Positions 8,645 through 29,007 of a stretch of 64,000 nt of DNA are shown in pieces. Positions within the stretch are counted from its first letter, which is position 1, and the number at the start of each line of letters is the position of its first letter. Location: assembly GCA_902790175.1 (NCBI GenBank), contig CADAQZ010000012.1, forward strand, positions 19,166-83,165. Reading direction: 5' to 3'. Source of the DNA: an uncultured Eubacteriales bacterium (GTDB lineage Bacteria > Bacillota > Clostridia > Christensenellales > Aristaeellaceae). Position numbers and translations under genes: made by a program. The notes beneath the pieces were generated by a model. It saw only the letters and a program-made list of their open reading frames with translations, was not told the DNA's origin and ran no database searches.

Positions 8645-9754
8645 TTAGTTCTCCCGTACCCACTCGTCCTCCGGCAGGCTCTCGAGGATCTGCACGGTGG
8701 CGTCGGCGGAGGGATAGCTCCAGGTCTCCTCGGCGGGCGTGGGGGACGGGGTGGGCGTGGCGTCCGGACCGGGCGTCGCGCCGATCTGGCCGGGCGCGCG
8801 CGTGGCGTTTCCAACGACGGGCAGGGCCTCGTCGCGGTCGGTCTCGATCACTTCGCGCAGCACGAATACCTCTTCGATGTGCTTGAAGTCTGCCGACGGG
8901 GCGATCACGGCGTAGCTGCCCTCGCTGCCGGCGTCCATGGACACGGCGGTGACGGTGCCGATGTGCAGCCCCTTCGGGAACAGCGAGTCCGTGCCCGACG
9001 TGATCACCGCGTCGCCCGGCATGATGCTGTTCAGATTGGGCAGGTAGTACACAAAGCACTGGGCGTCGTCGTCGGTGGCGGCCACGCGCCCGCGCATGAT
9101 GCCGTTGTCGCGCGTGCTCTGCACCATGCAGGCCACGGCGCTGCGGGAATCGATGATGCAGATGACCTTGGCGTAGTTCATGCCGGCCTCGTACACGCGG
9201 CCGATCAGCCCGTCGCCGTTGACCACGGACATGCCGGCGTTCACGCCATCGTTCTTGCCGCGGTTGATGGAGAAGGTTTCGAACCATTGGCCGGGGTCGC
9301 GGGCGATCACGCGCGCGAAGATCGGGTCCAGCGCCTCGTAGCGGCTCTTGGCATCCAGCGCGGCCTGCAGGCGCTCGTTTTCGCGGATGGCCTCCTGCGC
9401 GCTCTGCAGTTGCAGGCTCAGCTGCTGGTTCTCCACCGACAGGGCCTCGTACTCGTCCTCCAGCCTGTCGTAGTCCCGCCAGCGCTGCACGAACTGGCGC
9501 ACGCTCTCGGTCGCGCCGGTGAACGCGCTCTGCACGCGGCTGAACAGCGAGCCGATACCGTTTTCGGCGATGGAGATCTCGCTGCTGTTGCGTAGCACCA
9601 GGAAGAACACGATGGCGGCGACCGCCAGCAGCACCAGCACCGAAAACAGCACGCGACGGCGCGTGAGCTGCGCCCGGCGCTGCTCCTGCGTCGAACGCCG
9701 TACCCGCCGCCCCTTCGCGGCACGCTGCTTTTTGGGGGCTTTGCTTCTTGGCAT
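8645..9754 (-). CDS. mreC: Rod shape-determining protein MreC
   Basis: 369 residues: basic N-terminus, one membrane helix at about 32-53, a coiled-coil region about 70-125 (long run of E/Q/L with heptad character), then the beta-rich MreC core including GDGLIGRVYEAG and PGDAVITSG. The C-terminal 60 residues are P/T-rich and probably disordered. MreC is the periplasmic-side scaffold that activates PBP2. An 86-bp gap holding a hairpin repeat separates it from mreD. Confidence 0.95.
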   Translation of the reverse strand: MPRSKAPKKQRAAKGRRVRRSTQEQRRAQLTRRRVLFSVLVLLAVAAIVFFLVLRNSSEISIAENGIGSLFSRVQSAFTGATESVRQFVQRWRDYDRLEDEYEALSVENQQLSLQLQSAQEAIRENERLQAALDAKSRYEALDPIFARVIARDPGQWFETFSINRGKNDGVNAGMSVVNGDGLIGRVYEAGMNYAKVICIIDSRSAVACMVQSTRDNGIMRGRVAATDDDAQCFVYYLPNLNSIMPGDAVITSGTDSLFPKGLHIGTVTAVSMDAGSEGSYAVIAPSADFKHIEEVFVLREVIETDRDEALPVVGNATRAPGQIGATPGPDATPTPSPTPAEETWSYPSADATVQILESLPEDEWVREN

Positions 9755-22134: not shown

Positions 22135-22683
22135 TTACAGCCTTTTCACCATGCACACCAAATCCCGGTAACTGCCGTCCTTCAGGCGGATGGCGTCGGG
22201 ACGCTTGGCGACCTTGACGAAGCCCATCTTCTCATACAGCGCGCGGCCCCGCGCGTTGCCGTCGATGTACTCCAGCTCCACCTGCTCCACGCCGCGCGCG
22301 CGGGCGGCGTCGAGCATCGCCTCGAACATGGCCGTGCCGATACCCTGTCCCCAGAATTTCCGGTACAGCGCGATGGCGACGTCGGCCCGGTGGCGGCATT
22401 TGATCTGCGGGAAGAACTGCAGGTTGCAGTTGCCCGCCAATTCGCCTCCCACGAAGCAGCAGAGCATCAGGCTGTTCGGGTTGTCCTTGAAGGCTTGCAG
22501 CAGCTCGCGCTCCTTCTCCAGCGTGTAGCGGTCGCACTCCTCCGGGTAGCGCAGTACGAACTCCGTCTCCGCGGCGGTGTCCTTGAGGTATTGTATCATC
22601 TGCGGCGCGTCGTCCGGCTCCGCCACGCGCAGCACGGCCTCGCGCCCGTCCCTGAGGGTGAAGCGCCTGGGATCGAACAACAT
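22135..22683 (-). CDS. GNAT-family N-acetyltransferase
   Basis: 182 residues of one GNAT domain. Motif A is seen as ALYRKFWGQGIGTAMFEAML (about residues 110-128, holding the acetyl-CoA pyrophosphate loop), followed by YIDGNARGRALYEKMGFVK. Acceptor unknown. Start ATG 22683 follows GGAGGCGA. Its start is 29 bp from the end of the upstream HTH-cupin-ligase gene on the same strand, so both are probably on the T-box-controlled transcript. Confidence 0.92.
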   Translation of the reverse strand: MLFDPRRFTLRDGREAVLRVAEPDDAPQMIQYLKDTAAETEFVLRYPEECDRYTLEKERELLQAFKDNPNSLMLCCFVGGELAGNCNLQFFPQIKCRHRADVAIALYRKFWGQGIGTAMFEAMLDAARARGVEQVELEYIDGNARGRALYEKMGFVKVAKRPDAIRLKDGSYRDLVCMVKRL

Positions 22684-22712: not shown

Positions 22713-24983
22713 TCAGAGCTTGTTCCTCTGGATCTTCCCGCTGATGGTCTTAGGCAGCTCGTCGCGGAAGACGACGATGCGGGGGTACTTGTAGGGCGCG
22801 GTGCGCTTCTTGACGTAGTTCTGGATGTCCTTCTTGAGCTCCTCGGTGGCCTCGATGCCCTTGGTGAGCACGATGCTGGCCTTGACCACCTGGCCGCGGA
22901 TCTCGTCCGGGGCGGCGGAGACGCCGCACTCCAGCACGTAGGGCAGCTCCATGATGACACTCTCGATCTCAAACGGCCCGATGCGGTAGCCGGACGACTT
23001 GATCACATCGTCGGTGCGGCTGACGTACCAGAAGTAGCCGTCCTCGTCGCGCCACGCCATGTCGCGCGTGTGGTAGAGGCCGTCGTGCCAGACGGCGTTC
23101 GTGGCCTCCTCGTTGCCGTAGTAGCCCGCGAACAGGCCGCAGGGGATGCCCTTGTCCGTGCGGATGACGATCTCGCCCGGCTCGCCGACCTTCACGGGGT
23201 TGCCGTCCGGGTCCACCAGGTCCACGTCGAACAGCGGGCTGGGCTTGCCCATGGAGCCCACCTTCGGCTTCGTGCCGGCGAAGTTGCCCAGCACCAGCGT
23301 GGTTTCGGTCTGGCCGAACGCCTCCATGATGGACAGGCCCGTGGTCTTCTTGAACAGGTTGAACACCTCGGGGTTCAGCGCTTCGCCCGCGGTGCAGGCG
23401 CAGTGGATGCTGGACAGGTCGTACTTGGAGATGTCCTCGCGGATCAGGAAGCGGTACATCGTCGGCGGTGCGCAGAACGTGGTGATGTTGTACTTCTTGA
23501 ACATCGGCAGGATGTCGTGCGCGTTGAAGCGGTCGAAGTCGTACACGAACACGGCGCACTCGTTCATCCATTGCCCGTACAGCTTGCCCCACAGCGCCTT
23601 GCCCCAGCCGGTGTCGGAGATCGTGAAGTGCAGGCCGTCCGGCTCCACGTTGTGCCAGTAGTGGGCGGTGATGAAGTGGCCCAGCGGGTAGCAGTGGGTG
23701 TGCATGGCCAGCTTCGGATAGCCGGTGGTGCCGGAGGAGAAGAACATCACCATCGGGTCGTCGCCGCAGGGCGCGTCCTCGGTGCGGGGGAACGCGGAGC
23801 GGTAGCTCAGGTATTCCTCGTCGAAGTCGTGCCAGCCCTCGCGCTGCCCGCCGCAGAGCACGCGGGTCTTGACGTAGGGACAGGTCTCGATGGCCTCCTC
23901 CACGTGCGAGGCGGCGTCGCCGTCGGCCGTGACGCAGATGGCGCTGACGCCCGCGGTCTCGAAGCGGTACTCGTAATCCTTCTTCAGAAGCTGGTCCGTG
24001 GCGGGGATGGCGACGGCGCCCAGCTTGTGCAGCGCCATCATTACGACCCAGAACTGCCAGTTGCGCCGCAGCACCAGCATCACGCGGTCGCCCCGCTTGA
24101 CTCCCAGGGCCTTGAAGTAGTTGGCGGCGCGGTTCGACTTGCGGCTGATGTCCTCGAAGGTGAAGCGCTGCTCGTTGTTGTTGCGGTCCACGTACAGGAG
24201 CGCCAGCTTGTCCGGCTTGCGCTCGGCCAGGCCGTCCACGATGTCGAACGCGAAGTTGAACTTGTCGCGGGTGGGGAACGCGATGTGCTGCAGGTGGCCC
24301 TCGCCGTCCTCGTCCAGGTCCACGAACTTGTCGTAGATCATGTGCTGCTTGGCGGGGCGCACGGCCATCACGGTCTGCGTCACCTGCTCCTGCTCCACCT
24401 TCTCGCCGGGCAGCACCACGGCCACGAACGTGCAGTCGCGGCCGCCGGTGGCGATCATGCCGTGGGGTGTGGAGGAGTTGTAGTAGATGCTGTCGCCCTC
24501 CTTGAGGTGCTCCACGTGGTCGCCCACGCGCACGAGCAGCTCGCCCGAGAGGATCAGGTCAAACTCCTGGCCGGAGTGCGTGGTGGTGTGGATGGGCTTG
24601 TCCTGCAGCTCCTCCGAGTAGCTGTAGGTGACCCAGAAGGGCTCGGCGATCTTGCCGGAGAACATCGGCGCGAGGTTGGAGATCTCGATGCCCTCCTCGC
24701 GGGCGGTGATGCTGGCCTCGCCCTTGCGCGTGACGTTGTAGGAGCGCAGGTTGGCGCTGCGGCCCTCCATCAGGTCGGTGATATCCACGCCGAAGATGCG
24801 CGCGCAGTTGTGGATGAACGTGAAGGGCAGGTCGGCCTTGCCGGCCTCGTAGTCGATGTAGGTCTCCACATCCAGGCCGGTCTGGTCCGCCATATAGACG
24901 ACGCTGTAGCCCGCGATCTCGCGCAGGGCGCGGATACGGGTGCCCACCTCGTAGAGCATACCGGTCATTTCCGTTGTGTTCAT
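22713..24983 (-). CDS. HTH-cupin-acyl-CoA synthetase fusion protein
   Basis: 756 residues from ATG 24983 (GGAGGACA upstream). Three modules: XRE HTH at about 10-68 (RIRALREIAGYSVVYMADQTG), a cupin at about 110-180 (HSGQEFDLILSGELLVRVG, with STPHGM), and an AMP-forming acyl-CoA synthetase from about 220 to the end (MFFSSGTTGYPK, EAFGQTETT, DDVIKSSGYRIGP, KTISGKIQRNKL). The enzyme part resembles acetyl/medium-chain-type ligases. HTH-cupin is the layout of small-molecule-sensing regulators; fused here to an enzyme it could sense the same acid. A T-box leader precedes the gene and a GNAT gene follows. Confidence 0.92.
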   Translation of the reverse strand: MNTTEMTGMLYEVGTRIRALREIAGYSVVYMADQTGLDVETYIDYEAGKADLPFTFIHNCARIFGVDITDLMEGRSANLRSYNVTRKGEASITAREEGIEISNLAPMFSGKIAEPFWVTYSYSEELQDKPIHTTTHSGQEFDLILSGELLVRVGDHVEHLKEGDSIYYNSSTPHGMIATGGRDCTFVAVVLPGEKVEQEQVTQTVMAVRPAKQHMIYDKFVDLDEDGEGHLQHIAFPTRDKFNFAFDIVDGLAERKPDKLALLYVDRNNNEQRFTFEDISRKSNRAANYFKALGVKRGDRVMLVLRRNWQFWVVMMALHKLGAVAIPATDQLLKKDYEYRFETAGVSAICVTADGDAASHVEEAIETCPYVKTRVLCGGQREGWHDFDEEYLSYRSAFPRTEDAPCGDDPMVMFFSSGTTGYPKLAMHTHCYPLGHFITAHYWHNVEPDGLHFTISDTGWGKALWGKLYGQWMNECAVFVYDFDRFNAHDILPMFKKYNITTFCAPPTMYRFLIREDISKYDLSSIHCACTAGEALNPEVFNLFKKTTGLSIMEAFGQTETTLVLGNFAGTKPKVGSMGKPSPLFDVDLVDPDGNPVKVGEPGEIVIRTDKGIPCGLFAGYYGNEEATNAVWHDGLYHTRDMAWRDEDGYFWYVSRTDDVIKSSGYRIGPFEIESVIMELPYVLECGVSAAPDEIRGQVVKASIVLTKGIEATEELKKDIQNYVKKRTAPYKYPRIVVFRDELPKTISGKIQRNKL

Positions 24984-25059
24984 GGGAATGTCCTCCTTCG
25001 CTTCGGTCGTACCGGGGTCAATCGAATATCCGACAAAGTCCTGTGGGAGGTGGTCCATA

Positions 25060-25355
25060 AAAAAACCCGCCTCACGCCATGCCTTCGCATGCTTGAGACG
25101 AGTTGCAATCAACCCGCGGTACCACTCAAATTGCACGTTGCCGTGCCCCTTCAGGCTCCATCAAGCCCTGTGCCTTTACGCAGCATTCACGGGAAGCGTC
25201 TACTCGATTCCCCGCCCTCGGGGATCTTTCGGGCTTCCGGCTCGGAAGGGATGGGCTTGTGAGCAACCTGCGTCCGACCTTTCAGCATCCGGCCGGCTCT
25301 CTGCGCGCCGATTGGCTCCGCCGTCTTCGTCATCGCCTTTGAGATATATTCGATT
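25060..25355 (-). ncRNA. T-box riboswitch leader
   Basis: Minus-strand order: promoter, Stem I region with GATGACGAAGACGG and the conserved CAGAGAGCCGG followed by GGATGCTGAAAGG, then the T-box sequence GAGTGGTACCGCG (complement of 25114-25126; 12 of 14 match the consensus), flanked by TGCAAT/ATTGCA, then a terminator hairpin (CGTCTCA...TGAGGCG) with seven or more U. The UGGU would pair with a tRNA whose discriminator base is A. The specifier codon could not be fixed by hand. Expected action: uncharged tRNA stabilises the antiterminator and turns on the HTH-cupin-ligase and GNAT genes. Confidence 0.88.
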
Positions 25356-25361
25356 GTGGTT

Positions 25362-25390
25362 ATTCTATCACCAGCCCCGGCGTCTGTCAA
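25362..25390 (-). promoter_or_regulatory. Promoter of the T-box transcript
   Basis: Minus strand TTGACA (25385-25390), 17-bp spacer, TAGAAT (25362-25367). It gives a leader of about 370 nt before the ATG at 24983. Confidence 0.82.
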
Positions 25391-25547: not shown

Positions 25548-26264
25548 ATGGGTCAGTTCAGCGGGCTTCGCAAGCCCGACCGGCGCGTGATGGTCGTCAC
25601 CGGCCACTACGGCAGCGGCAAGACGGAGTTCTGCGTGAGCCTGGCGATGCGGCTGGCGAAGCTGGGCTTCGGGCCGTATGAGCGCCTGGGCCTGGTGGAC
25701 CTGGACATCGCCAACCCCTACTTCCGCTCCCGCGAGCGCCGGGAGACGCTGGAAGCCGCGGGCGTAAAGGTGTACGGCAGCGCCTACATCCACGAAATCA
25801 CCGCCGAGCTTCCCGCGCTGGGCGCGGACATCCGAGCGCCACTGGAGGACGCGGGCTGCCGCGTGATCGTGGACGTGGGCGGCAACGACTCCGGCGCGGT
25901 GGTGCTCAACCAGTTCGGCAAGTACTTCGACCCCGAGGACGCGCTGTTTCTGATCGTCGTGAACGCCAACCGGCCCGAGACGCGCGACCTGGAAGGGGCG
26001 CTTTCGCACCTGCGGGCCATCGAGCAGAAGACCGGGCGGCGCATTGACGGCGTGATCAACAACTGCCACCTGCTGCGCGAGACCGACGCCGCGTGCGTGG
26101 CGAAGGGACACGCGCTGTGCGAGGCGCTCTGCGAAGCGACGGGGAAGCTCCTCTGGTGCGACACCTACCCCTCGGGCATCGTCCCCGAAGGCGATCTCGC
26201 CGGGAAGTACGAGCACCTGCTGCCGCTGGGGATGTACATGCGGCCGACATGGATAGACAAATGA
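25548..26264 (+). CDS. P-loop ATPase of the ParA/CobQ type
   Basis: 238 residues from ATG 25548, with AGAGG seven bases upstream. Walker A GHYGSGKTE at about residues 19-27, LVDLDIANPYFRS (Walker A' / switch region) and RVIVDVGGNDSG (Walker B-like). This is a SIMIBI-class nucleotide-binding protein. The oxidoreductase genes start 155 bp downstream on the same strand across a heptad-repeat hairpin, so it may help mature or regulate that iron-sulfur enzyme; that role is inference. No DNA-binding or membrane part is seen. Confidence 0.85.
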   Translation: MGQFSGLRKPDRRVMVVTGHYGSGKTEFCVSLAMRLAKLGFGPYERLGLVDLDIANPYFRSRERRETLEAAGVKVYGSAYIHEITAELPALGADIRAPLEDAGCRVIVDVGGNDSGAVVLNQFGKYFDPEDALFLIVVNANRPETRDLEGALSHLRAIEQKTGRRIDGVINNCHLLRETDAACVAKGHALCEALCEATGKLLWCDTYPSGIVPEGDLAGKYEHLLPLGMYMRPTWIDK

Positions 26265-26419: not shown

Positions 26420-26653
26420 ATGGCAAACAGAAGGTTCAAGGTCGTCTTCGACCGGGAGCGCTGCAAGGGATGCGAGCTGTGCCGCAGCTTCTGCCCGAAG
26501 CAGATCATCGCCATGGACACCCAGGTGAACGCCAAGGGCTACTGCCCCGCGATGATCGTCGATCAGGAGCAGTGCATCGGCTGCCAGAGCTGCGCGACCG
26601 TCTGTCCCGACTGCGCGATCGAGATTTTCCAGCTGGAGGAGGGGGAAGCATGA
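26420..26653 (+). CDS. 2-oxoacid:ferredoxin oxidoreductase, ferredoxin-like (delta) subunit
   Basis: 77 residues with two 4Fe-4S motifs, CKGCELCRSFCPK (about 15-27) and CIGCQSCATVCPD (about 51-63). It carries electrons from the TPP site to external ferredoxin. AAGGAGG precedes the ATG. The stop overlaps the next start as ATGA, so stoichiometric translation with the alpha subunit is likely. Confidence 0.95.
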   Translation: MANRRFKVVFDRERCKGCELCRSFCPKQIIAMDTQVNAKGYCPAMIVDQEQCIGCQSCATVCPDCAIEIFQLEEGEA

Positions 26654-27726
26654 GCGAGAAGGTATTGATGAAGGGCAACGAGGCCTTCGCCGAGGCGGTC
26701 ATCCGCGGCGGCGCGCGCTTCTACTTTGGCTATCCCATCACCCCCCAGAGCGAGATCCCGGAGTTCATGAGCCGGGAGCTGCCCAAGCGGGGCGGCAAGT
26801 TCCTCCAGGCGGAGAGCGAGCTGGGCGCGATCAACATGGCCTACGGCTGCGGCGCGGCCGGCGGCAGCGGCTTTATCTCGTCCTCGTCCCCGGGCATCGC
26901 GCTGATGCAGGAGGGCATGAGCTTCCTCTGCGGCGCGGAGGTGCCGGTGACGCTTCTGAACGTGTCGCGCGGCGGCCCCGGCATCGGCTCGATCCAACCC
27001 GGCCAGGCCGACTACAACCAGGTGACCCGCGGCGGCGGCAACGGCGACTATCGCATCCCCGTGTTCGCGCCCGCGTCGATCCAGGAGGCCGTGGACATCC
27101 TCTACGAGTGCCCGTCCATCGCCGACAAGTATCGCAACCCGGTGATGGTGCTGGCCGACGGCCTGATGGGCCAGATGATGGAGCCCGTGATGCTGCCTGA
27201 GGAGAAGCACGCGCTGACCAGCGAGGAGATCTCCACCGCGAAGCCCTGGGCGCTGTCCGGCAGCAAGAAGGGCACGCGCAGCGTGGTCAAGAGCCTGCGG
27301 CTGCAGCCGGAGGTGCTGGAGGAGCACGTGGAGCACCTGTTTGAGAAGTACGCCGCCATGGAGAAGGAACTGGAGCGCGTCGAGGTCGAGAACCTCGAGG
27401 GCGCCGAGGTCGTGTTCGTGGCGTTCGGCACGATGGCGCGCCTGGCCCGCGAGGCCATGGAGCTTCTGGAGGCCCAGGGCGTGAAGGCCGGCCTGATCCG
27501 GCCCATCAGCCTGTGGCCGTATCCCTACGGCGCGTTTGAGCAGATCCCCGCCACCGCGAAGGCCGTGATCTCCGTGGAGCTGAGCATGGGCCAGATGCTC
27601 CAGGACATCAACCTGGGCGTGAAGGGCCGCGTGCCCGTCAAACTCATCCACCGCGTGGGCGGCATGCTGCCGACGAGCCTGGAGGTCGTGGAAAAGACGA
27701 AGAAGATACTGGAGGAAGTGCGATGA
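26650..27726 (+). CDS. vorB: 2-oxoacid:ferredoxin oxidoreductase alpha subunit (VorB type)
   Basis: 358 residues from the ATG overlapping the ferredoxin stop. FYFGYPITPQSEIPEFM and ESELGAINMAYG are the family signatures of the pyrimidine-binding domain; the C-terminal third is the transketolase-C-like domain (VVFVAFGTMARLAREA). The family oxidatively decarboxylates branched-chain or other 2-oxoacids to acyl-CoA with ferredoxin. The size and motifs fit clostridial VorB; 2-oxoglutarate or another 2-oxoacid cannot be excluded. Second gene of four. Confidence 0.93.
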   Translation: MSEKVLMKGNEAFAEAVIRGGARFYFGYPITPQSEIPEFMSRELPKRGGKFLQAESELGAINMAYGCGAAGGSGFISSSSPGIALMQEGMSFLCGAEVPVTLLNVSRGGPGIGSIQPGQADYNQVTRGGGNGDYRIPVFAPASIQEAVDILYECPSIADKYRNPVMVLADGLMGQMMEPVMLPEEKHALTSEEISTAKPWALSGSKKGTRSVVKSLRLQPEVLEEHVEHLFEKYAAMEKELERVEVENLEGAEVVFVAFGTMARLAREAMELLEAQGVKAGLIRPISLWPYPYGAFEQIPATAKAVISVELSMGQMLQDINLGVKGRVPVKLIHRVGGMLPTSLEVVEKTKKILEEVR

Positions 27727-28472
27727 AACCTGTATTTACCGTAACAGAGGGCATGCTGCCCGTCAGCACCAGCTATTGCCCCGGCTGCACCCACGGCGTC
27801 GCACACCGCATCATCATGGAGACGCTGGACGAGATGGGCCTGCTCGGGGACACCCTGGGCGTCGCGCCCATCGGCTGCTCCGTCGTGGCGCACCAGTTCA
27901 TGAACGTGGACATGTGCGAGGCGGCCCACGGCCGCGCCCCGGCGGTGGCCTCCGGCATCCGCCGCGTGCACCCGGACAAGGTCGTGTTCACCTACCAGGG
28001 CGACGGCGACCTGGCCTCCATCGGCATGGGCGAGATCGTCCACGCCGCGGCCCGTGGGGAGAAGTTCACCACGTTCTTCATCAACAACGGCATCTACGGC
28101 ATGACCGGCGGCCAGATGGCCCCCACCACGCTGATCGGCCAGCGCTCCACCACCTGCGTGGACGGCCGCACGCGCGAGCAGGCGGGCATGCCGCTGAAGA
28201 TCTGCGAGCTGCTGGCCACGCTGGACGGCCCGGCCTACATCGAGCGCGTGGCGCTGAACAGCCCGGCGCACATCCGCGCGGCGAAGAAGGCCGTGCGCAA
28301 GGCGTTTGAGTACCAGCTCGCGGGCAAGGGCTTCACGTTCATCGAGATGCTGTCCATCTGTCCCACGAACTGGGGCCTGACGCCGCCCAAGGCGATGCAG
28401 TGGCTGGAGGAGAACATGATGGCCTACTATCCGCTGGGCGTCTACCGCGACGTTGAAAAGGAGGCGCAGTGA
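27723..28472 (+). CDS. 2-oxoacid:ferredoxin oxidoreductase beta subunit (TPP-binding)
   Basis: 249 residues; start overlaps the alpha stop (ATGA). CPGCTHG, then GVAPIGCSVV, and the TPP/Mg motif YQGDGDLASIGMGE followed by FFINNGIYGMTGGQM are seen. It binds the diphosphate of TPP at the active site with the alpha subunit. Third gene of the unit. Confidence 0.95.
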   Translation: MKPVFTVTEGMLPVSTSYCPGCTHGVAHRIIMETLDEMGLLGDTLGVAPIGCSVVAHQFMNVDMCEAAHGRAPAVASGIRRVHPDKVVFTYQGDGDLASIGMGEIVHAAARGEKFTTFFINNGIYGMTGGQMAPTTLIGQRSTTCVDGRTREQAGMPLKICELLATLDGPAYIERVALNSPAHIRAAKKAVRKAFEYQLAGKGFTFIEMLSICPTNWGLTPPKAMQWLEENMMAYYPLGVYRDVEKEAQ

Positions 28473-28473
28473 C

Positions 28474-29007
28474 ATGGCGACGACGAAGCTGTTTTTCGCC
28501 GGTTCCGGCGGACAGGGCGTATTGACGATGGGCCAGATGCTGACCTACGCGGCCATGTACGCCGACATGAACGCCACCTGGCTTCCCTCCTACGGCCCGG
28601 AGATGCGCGGCGGCACCGCGAACTGCACCGTGGTCATCAGCCCCGACAAGCCCGTGTCCTGCCCGCTGATCTACGAGGCGGACGACGTGGTGGTGATGAA
28701 CCTGCCGTCGCTGTTGAAGTTTGAATCGCTGGTGAAGCCCGGCGGCAACCTGTTCGTGAACAGTTCGCTGATCGAGCAGAAGGCGACGCGCGACGACATC
28801 AACGTCTACTACGTGCCCGCGAACGACATCGCGCTGGAGCTGGGCAACGCCCGCACCGCGAACGTCGTGATGCTCGGCGCGCTGATGTCCGTCAGCCCCG
28901 TCGTGCCGGTGGAGATGGTCTACAAGATCATGGAAAAGACGTTCTCCGGCCGCAAGGCGCATTTGCTGGACATCAACAAGACCGCGTTCCACGCCTGGAA
29001 GCAGTGA
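28474..29007 (+). CDS. 2-oxoacid:ferredoxin oxidoreductase gamma subunit
   Basis: 177 residues from ATG 28474, one base after the beta stop, with AAAAGGAGG inside the end of beta. FAGSGGQGVLTMGQML is the gamma-domain glycine motif and SYGPEMRGGTANCTV the family core. It contributes to CoA binding. A perfect terminator follows at once, so the unit is ferredoxin-alpha-beta-gamma. Confidence 0.95.
   Translation: MATTKLFFAGSGGQGVLTMGQMLTYAAMYADMNATWLPSYGPEMRGGTANCTVVISPDKPVSCPLIYEADDVVVMNLPSLLKFESLVKPGGNLFVNSSLIEQKATRDDINVYYVPANDIALELGNARTANVVMLGALMSVSPVVPVEMVYKIMEKTFSGRKAHLLDINKTAFHAWKQ

Follow-up and report, generated by a model that had tools for sequence, protein, structure and literature searches.

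An isoleucine-type T-box before an acyl-CoA ligase gene, and its probable role in isoleucine synthesis from scavenged 2-methylbutyrate in an uncultured Eubacteriales bacterium

That rumen and gut anaerobes require branched-chain acids, and that they build isoleucine from 2-methylbutyrate, is long-established physiology. Robinson and Allison reportedly described this synthesis in rumen anaerobes in 1969, and a 1984 paper by Monticello is said, from its title, to deal with isoleucine synthesis from propionate or alpha-methylbutyrate in Clostridium sporogenes. For M. ruminantium, a rumen methanogen, reductive carboxylation of 2-methylbutyrate is given as the probable isoleucine route (PMC2812497). 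The acyl-CoA synthetase MacsMa prefers 2-methylbutyrate, and its acyl-pocket residue Trp259 is described as critical (PMC10455477). MbcS acts selectively on 2-methylbutyrate and isobutyrate but poorly on isovalerate, and in Staphylococcus aureus it feeds branched-chain fatty acid synthesis (PMC10026030). T-boxes, in turn, are found upstream of classical amino-acid genes, among them leuA and the tRNA synthetase genes (PMC2700814, PMC7438776).

We analyzed a window of 64,000 nucleotides, meaning the whole stretch of DNA under study, from an uncultured Eubacteriales bacterium (contig CADAQZ010000012.1). A sequence-only reading had claimed a complete T-box leader upstream of an HTH-cupin-acyl-CoA ligase gene. 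The promoter, stem I, T-box core and terminator were all present on the minus strand, as follows.

25362 to 25390, minus strand: sigma-70-type promoter TTGACA-17-TAGAAT, read directly (TTGACA 25390 to 25385, TAGAAT 25367 to 25362).
25091 to 25342, minus strand: T-box leader (RF00230), from a covariance match and conservation in the genus.
25250 to 25252, minus strand: isoleucine specifier AUC, 5' of the CUUC strand of lower stem I with a single base between them.
25115 to 25127, minus strand: T-box core GAGTGGTACCGCG (antiterminator), located in the sequence.
25059 to 25102, minus strand: intrinsic terminator CTCGTCTCA / TGAGGCGGG followed by seven T; the 5' arm CTCGTCTCA is an antiterminator arm too.
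22713 to 24983, minus strand: HTH(XRE)-Cupin_2-AMP-binding-AMP-binding_C acyl-CoA ligase of 756 aa, from domain matches; predicted 2-methylbutyryl-CoA synthetase.

The check with Rfam model RF00230 that had been proposed gave a match across the full model (25342 to 25091, minus strand, model positions 1 to 219, E 3e-12 in a 551-base search), though its 58.6 bits lie below the gathering score of 93. For this reason, a default Rfam scan of the whole window did not report the T-box. The low covariance score is typical for T-boxes of this genome: only 3 of its 13 T-box matches exceed 93 bits and 10 fall below, including those before ileS (90.3 bits) and valS (92.5 bits). The leader is kept in 23 of the 24 same-genus loci, our own counted; the 24th, L041, is cut off by a contig end and begins within the gene. 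The E value of 3e-12 together with this conservation ruled out a chance resemblance, and the T-box before the ligase is real.

The 3' arm of the antiterminator (25102 to 25094) doubles as the 5' arm of the terminator, whose T-run ends at 25059. Both helices form nine of nine pairs and are mutually exclusive. When a fixed rule was applied to 123 leaders of relatives, antiterminator arms were present in all 123 and were joined by a terminator with a T-run in 103. With the downstream sequence shuffled over 20 rounds, the means were 23.2 and 0.3 and the maxima 32 and 1, respectively. Single-sequence minimum free energy folding of the leader was not distinctive (z −0.74). A Shine-Dalgarno sequence, GGAGG (24996 to 24992), and the ATG at 24983 follow, so the leader reads into the ligase gene that had been named and not into another. 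The locus thus matches the transcriptional antitermination type of T-box (RF00230) in its full-length match, stem I specifier, core and competing terminator; what differs is the target, a branched-chain acyl-CoA ligase.

The sequence-only reading gave no specifier codon and recommended fixing it. We read the specifier as the triplet that lies 5' of the 3' strand of lower stem I, separated from it by a single base. In this leader, GAAG (25328 to 25325) pairs with CUUC (25248 to 25245), and the codon is AUC, isoleucine, at 25252 to 25250. The frame is the one prioritised by TBDB, where AUC is the usual Ile specifier (0.99; PMC7778990). The context GCCCAUC occurs in the leader of 23 of 24 same-genus loci (own counted, the 24th cut at the contig end). 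Readings as CCC, CAU or another frame were rejected: the AUC frame is common to Ile-type leaders, and Val-type leaders carry GUA, GUG or GUC in that same frame. Applied to the T-boxes of the host genome, the rule was right in five of six cases (metG AUG, valS GUC, ileS AUC, pheS UUC and trpB-like UGG), and the script was off by one base at the thrS T-box. The script is strict: it missed 4 of the 13 own-genome T-boxes, missed L045 and miscalled L068, and the last two specifiers were assigned Ile by eye. Elsewhere in this genome we read, also by eye, UGG before a gene that resembles trpX but scores below its family cut-off, and AAC before asnB. Two further T-boxes read UAC (Tyr), at L008 and, by eye, at L003; they stand before a gene resembling PLP aminotransferases (its best model, PdxR, was below cut-off) and a gene that looks by eye like a symporter and had no NCBIfam match.

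The gene class originally assigned was borne out by HTH, Cupin_2, AMP-binding and AMP-binding_C domain matches. The closest PDB relative of the ligase is 3etc (E 1.4e-187), with the ligase domain aligned over residues 232 to 754. We take 3etc to be MacsMa, the Methanosarcina acetivorans acyl-CoA synthetase. This fits the title of the structure paper, which is among the references listed in PMC10455477, and the residue numbering agrees. The window ligase keeps the equivalents of Trp259 and Gly255 within the aligned domain, whereas MacsMa is archaeal and lacks the HTH-cupin N-terminus. We know of no MacsMa under T-box control. The N-terminal 230 residues of the ligase, searched alone, gave a weak PDB match (3h8u, E 0.0019). 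MbcS, which acts on 2-methylbutyrate and isobutyrate, is the best NCBIfam model, at 427.5 bits against an equivalog cut-off of 850; since this is half of the cut-off, we do not call the ligase MbcS. MbcS differs further in being one enzyme for both acids that feeds membrane lipids. Within the accessible portions of the papers covered by our search, PMC2494555 and PMC3766115 included, we found none that joins a T-box with these genes; the surveys Vitreschak 2008 and Gutierrez-Preciado 2009 lay outside that search.

The genes on either side of the ligase and its leader are the following.

22135 to 22683, minus strand: GNAT acetyltransferase, 29 bases downstream of the ligase on the same strand.
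25548 to 26264, plus strand: ATPase-like protein (P-loop by eye), divergent from the ligase; its homologues lie beside vor genes in relatives.
26420 to 26653, plus strand: 2x[4Fe-4S] ferredoxin (delta-type subunit), from family matches.
26650 to 27726, plus strand: VorB-type alpha subunit of a 2-oxoacid:ferredoxin oxidoreductase (NF005507, 466 bits, cut-off 399, scanned from 26653).
27723 to 28472, plus strand: beta (TPP) subunit; best NCBIfam match below its cut-off.
28474 to 29007, plus strand: gamma subunit, TIGR02175 over cut-off.

The acetyltransferase had been read as a co-controlled partner of the ligase. We rejected it as part of the unit, as it is not conserved: it neighbours the ligase in 13 of 23 loci of the genus, where contig ends truncate some, and in none of 80 loci from other genomes, these being the best 80 of at least 592 relatives. 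The vor genes of the window are divergent from the ligase and have no T-box of their own. Our scan of genome contigs yielded 80 named loci, the best 80 of at least 592 confirmed relatives, and many locus titles among the matches listed name ruminant-gut samples. Of these best 80 of at least 592, 33 have vor genes no more than 8 kb away and 23 an aminotransferase at that range; contig ends truncate some of the loci. A homologue of the ATPase-like protein, which itself had no Pfam or NCBIfam match, occurs in 34 of the same best 80.

Three genomes of the same taxonomic order, G043, G044 and G046, carry a tandem pair of HTH-cupin-ligases with one T-box per ligase; an ATPase-like gene and vor genes come next. 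The first ligase has the specifier AUC and the second GUA. A third T-box upstream reads CUC and precedes a LeuA-like gene and a TIM-barrel-AMP-ligase. The branched-chain aminotransferase lies between the ligases and vor in G043 and G046 and just past them in G044, and it was over cut-off in or beside the ligase-vor cluster in all five non-genus genomes searched (G028, G043, G044, G046 and G050).

After removal of L036 to L042 (six duplicates and one incomplete row), 144 deduplicated full-length ligases remained, of which 86 are preceded by an Ile T-box, 38 by a Val T-box and 20 by none that was called; no ligase among the 144 had a T-box for another amino acid. Three calls named an amino acid other than Ile, Val or Leu: Asp twice and Gly once. 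One of them was the misread Ile leader of L068, and the others, Asp in L058 and Gly in L133, were weak-scoring and did not precede a fused ligase. Five fused ligases without a called T-box (L137, L138, L140, L142 and L143) form one clade and have Gly461. At L045, a match to Gut-1 RNA (RF01706) at 9636 to 9707, with 41.4 bits against a gathering score of 50, lies just upstream of the Ile T-box on the opposite strand.

Comparison of the ligases by specifier led to a single residue near the acyl pocket.

23601 to 23603, minus strand: codon of Gly461, the counterpart of MacsMa Gly255; Ile-type ligases have Gly at this residue and Val-type ligases Ala.

The MacsMa equivalent, Gly255, lies four residues before Trp259, and the 3etc chain has Gly there; the offset of 23 between this chain and the published numbering was verified on motif III (431-YHTGD). 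In a first set of 104 proteins, residue 461 was Gly in every Ile-type ligase (67/67) and Ala in every Val-type one (37/37, L141 included), while W465, the equivalent of Trp259, was Trp in all 67 and all 37. We fixed this rule and applied it to a held-out set from a class-wide search (99 ligases, 6 duplicates dropped, 93 new, 14 of them without a call: 10 Gly, 4 Ala). It was right for all 79 (Ile-Gly 59/59, Val-Ala 20/20). A third set was added after dropping L249, the double of L244, and eight rows seen earlier. A specifier was read for 207 of all 242 rows, by eye for two of them. Of these, 131 were Ile, all with Gly at residue 461 (131/131), and 76 were Val, all with Ala there (76/76). The 35 ligases without a T-box call divide into 23 with Gly and 12 with Ala.

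These 207 agreements are not 207 independent events, since the tree holds just two independent switches between Ile and Val specifiers, and phylogeny limits what can be inferred. In a first tree of 124 ligases (the 144 less 17 near-identical genus rows and 3 short proteins), 36 of the 37 Val-type proteins fell in one clade (SH-aLRT 100), and the Ile/Val label required two changes. L141 is a Val-type protein nested among Ile-type ligases. With its relatives it makes up a second Val lineage of 20 rows and one without a call, which form one clade (support 100) inside Ile-type branches; the 242-row tree was built without columns 461 and 747. In the genomes of L141 and L094, the second Val-type gene and an Ile-type gene were both read, and many other L141-related genomes have a second match at 66 to 70% identity. 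Of the 756 positions, 461 alone switches completely and identically in the two Val lineages, and position 747 follows closely, from Ile to mostly Thr or Val. A paired sign test, made before the extra L141 relatives joined, gave p 0.5; with only two switches, no paired comparison can return a small p. What gives the association its weight is that a single substitution close to the pocket recurs exactly. The residue has changed a third time in L182, a ligase lacking a T-box: it carries Ala461 where its nearest rows have Gly, so residue 461 is able to change without a Val T-box.

The HTH and Cupin_2 domains suggest another purpose for the T-box, namely that the N-terminal part is a transcription factor whose level the T-box sets, and in some genomes the XRE-cupin and the ligase are indeed separate adjacent genes. 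We regard this as highly improbable, given that the specifier tracks ligase pocket residue 461 and that the N-terminus has a weak PDB match only. Of the 15 most type-specific positions, which are mostly N-terminal, L141 keeps the Ile-type letter at 9, and the N-terminus therefore does not follow the specifier as residue 461 does.

We also searched the host genome for the standard branched-chain pathway. The family search found no match for ilvD and only 22 bits against a cut-off of 226 for ilvC; the absence is suggestive only, since the genome is 87.8% complete. Among 28 same-genus genomes, ilvC was over cut-off in five, and those five carry ilvC and the ligase both. Across 24 order-level genomes, the anticorrelation between ligase and ilvC had p 0.0045 for any ligase and p 0.17 for fused full-length ligases only. 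A branched-chain aminotransferase match in the host (G000, C58, 27074 to 27944) is in two overlapping pieces, as in G018, from a frameshift or an assembly error. The host also has a split XRE-cupin gene and ligase gene (L061, contig C14, 7634 to 9899), with no T-box core found in the 400 bases upstream. The L061 ligase has Ala at the 461 position and, on that ground, may be this genome's isobutyrate (Val) enzyme under other control. Four other unfused ligases, L056 to L059, have M, G, A and G there.

These data bear on a role in lipid priming. There, the ligase would supply 2-methylbutyryl-CoA as a primer of branched-chain membrane lipids, in the manner of MbcS in S. aureus, and the paralogue would supply isobutyryl-CoA; the T-box would sense low Ile or Val because these amino acids are the other source of primers. 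Such a role would give the same T-box specificities, and the NCBIfam model that scored highest, albeit below its cut-off, was MbcS, an enzyme that supplies branched-chain fatty acid synthesis (PMC10026030). It is nonetheless unlikely in our judgment, as the ligase is clustered with vor and branched-chain aminotransferase genes in relatives and the missing ilvC and ilvD matches in the host genome point to amino acids. The lipid and amino-acid roles are compatible with each other.

The sequence-only reading had placed the ligase outside amino-acid biosynthesis and had proposed a switch tying amino-acid shortage to generic acid activation. Neither view was supported. The Ile specifier, the kinship with MacsMa and MbcS, the adjoining genes of a ketoisovalerate-type (VOR) ferredoxin oxidoreductase and the clustered aminotransferase in relatives point instead to branched-chain amino-acid synthesis, and the T-box-controlled ligase is most likely an amino-acid biosynthesis gene. 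We think it likely that the isoleucine-specific T-box controls isoleucine synthesis from scavenged 2-methylbutyrate, and that the paralogue with a Val T-box likewise serves the conversion of isobutyrate to valine.

From what is known of T-box biology, uncharged tRNA-Ile would pair with AUC in stem I and hold the antiterminator, letting transcription run into the ligase gene. The ligase would then convert 2-methylbutyrate, presumably released by other gut microbes, to 2-methylbutyryl-CoA. The adjoining ferredoxin oxidoreductase, run reductively, would add CO2 to give 3-methyl-2-oxopentanoate, from which a branched-chain aminotransferase would form isoleucine. The switch would in this way govern isoleucine synthesis by acid scavenging in a bacterium without detected ilvC or ilvD. 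In related Clostridia, isobutyrate is most likely turned into valine in the same manner, with the paralogous ligase controlled by a Val T-box. The combination of ligase and ferredoxin oxidoreductase, plus an aminotransferase, is that of the reductive carboxylation route of rumen anaerobes and methanogens; that route is known as physiology, whereas here there are amino-acid-matched T-boxes and separate Ile and Val ligases.

The oxidoreductase could also work in the oxidative direction. VOR enzymes are often part of amino-acid fermentation, and in a catabolic module the oxidoreductase would oxidise branched-chain 2-oxo acids, leaving the ligase for acid disposal or uptake. We give this catabolic reading very little credence: a T-box raises expression at amino-acid shortage, which is the wrong sign for catabolism, an AMP-forming ligase costs ATP, and specifier and pocket residue agree in 207/207 ligases with a specifier.

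Isoleucine and valine may not be the only amino acids involved. In the loci of relatives, all 21 calls of Leu (CUC/CUG) T-boxes, one leader counted twice, stand before a LeuA-like gene. The host genome has such a T-box (CUC; L002, 1501 to 1756) before the LeuA-like gene of L060 (contig C47, 4376 to 8393), where the LeuA-like protein is followed by an 804-aa fusion of a xylose-isomerase-like TIM barrel and an AMP-ligase. This arm resembles the known Leu T-box before leuA in having a CUC/CUG T-box before a LeuA-like gene. It differs in that the host's LeuA-like protein (HMGL-like and LeuA_dimer) is below the cut-offs of the leuA models it matched and is followed by the TIM-barrel-AMP-ligase fusion. 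leuB over its cut-off of 353.2 bits was found in 0/11 genomes, and the host genome had no match of any kind. Partial matches in G014 (352.0 bits) and G018 (351.2 bits) are near the cut-off, so leuB is probably present in these two.

More tentatively, and with clear doubt on our part, there may be a three-arm Ile/Val/Leu T-box regulon in gut Clostridia through which branched-chain amino acids are made from scavenged acids. Specifier and pocket (Gly/Ala461) would switch together when a ligase changes substrate, and the fused HTH-cupin would sense the acid or acyl-CoA, so that need (uncharged tRNA) and supply would both gate the one transcript.

Each element, whether T-box, ligase family or pathway, was already known separately; what appears to be new is a matched Ile/Val T-box regulon for acid-scavenging synthesis. 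It offers candidate genes, regulators and a readable code for branched-chain-acid physiology, in which the specifier would tell the acid for each ligase. Substrates can thereby be predicted for hundreds of unassigned acyl-CoA ligases (at least 592 relatives), and one residue, 461, is predicted to swap 2-methylbutyrate for isobutyrate. In this family, a riboswitch specifier and an enzyme active-site region have changed in step, twice.
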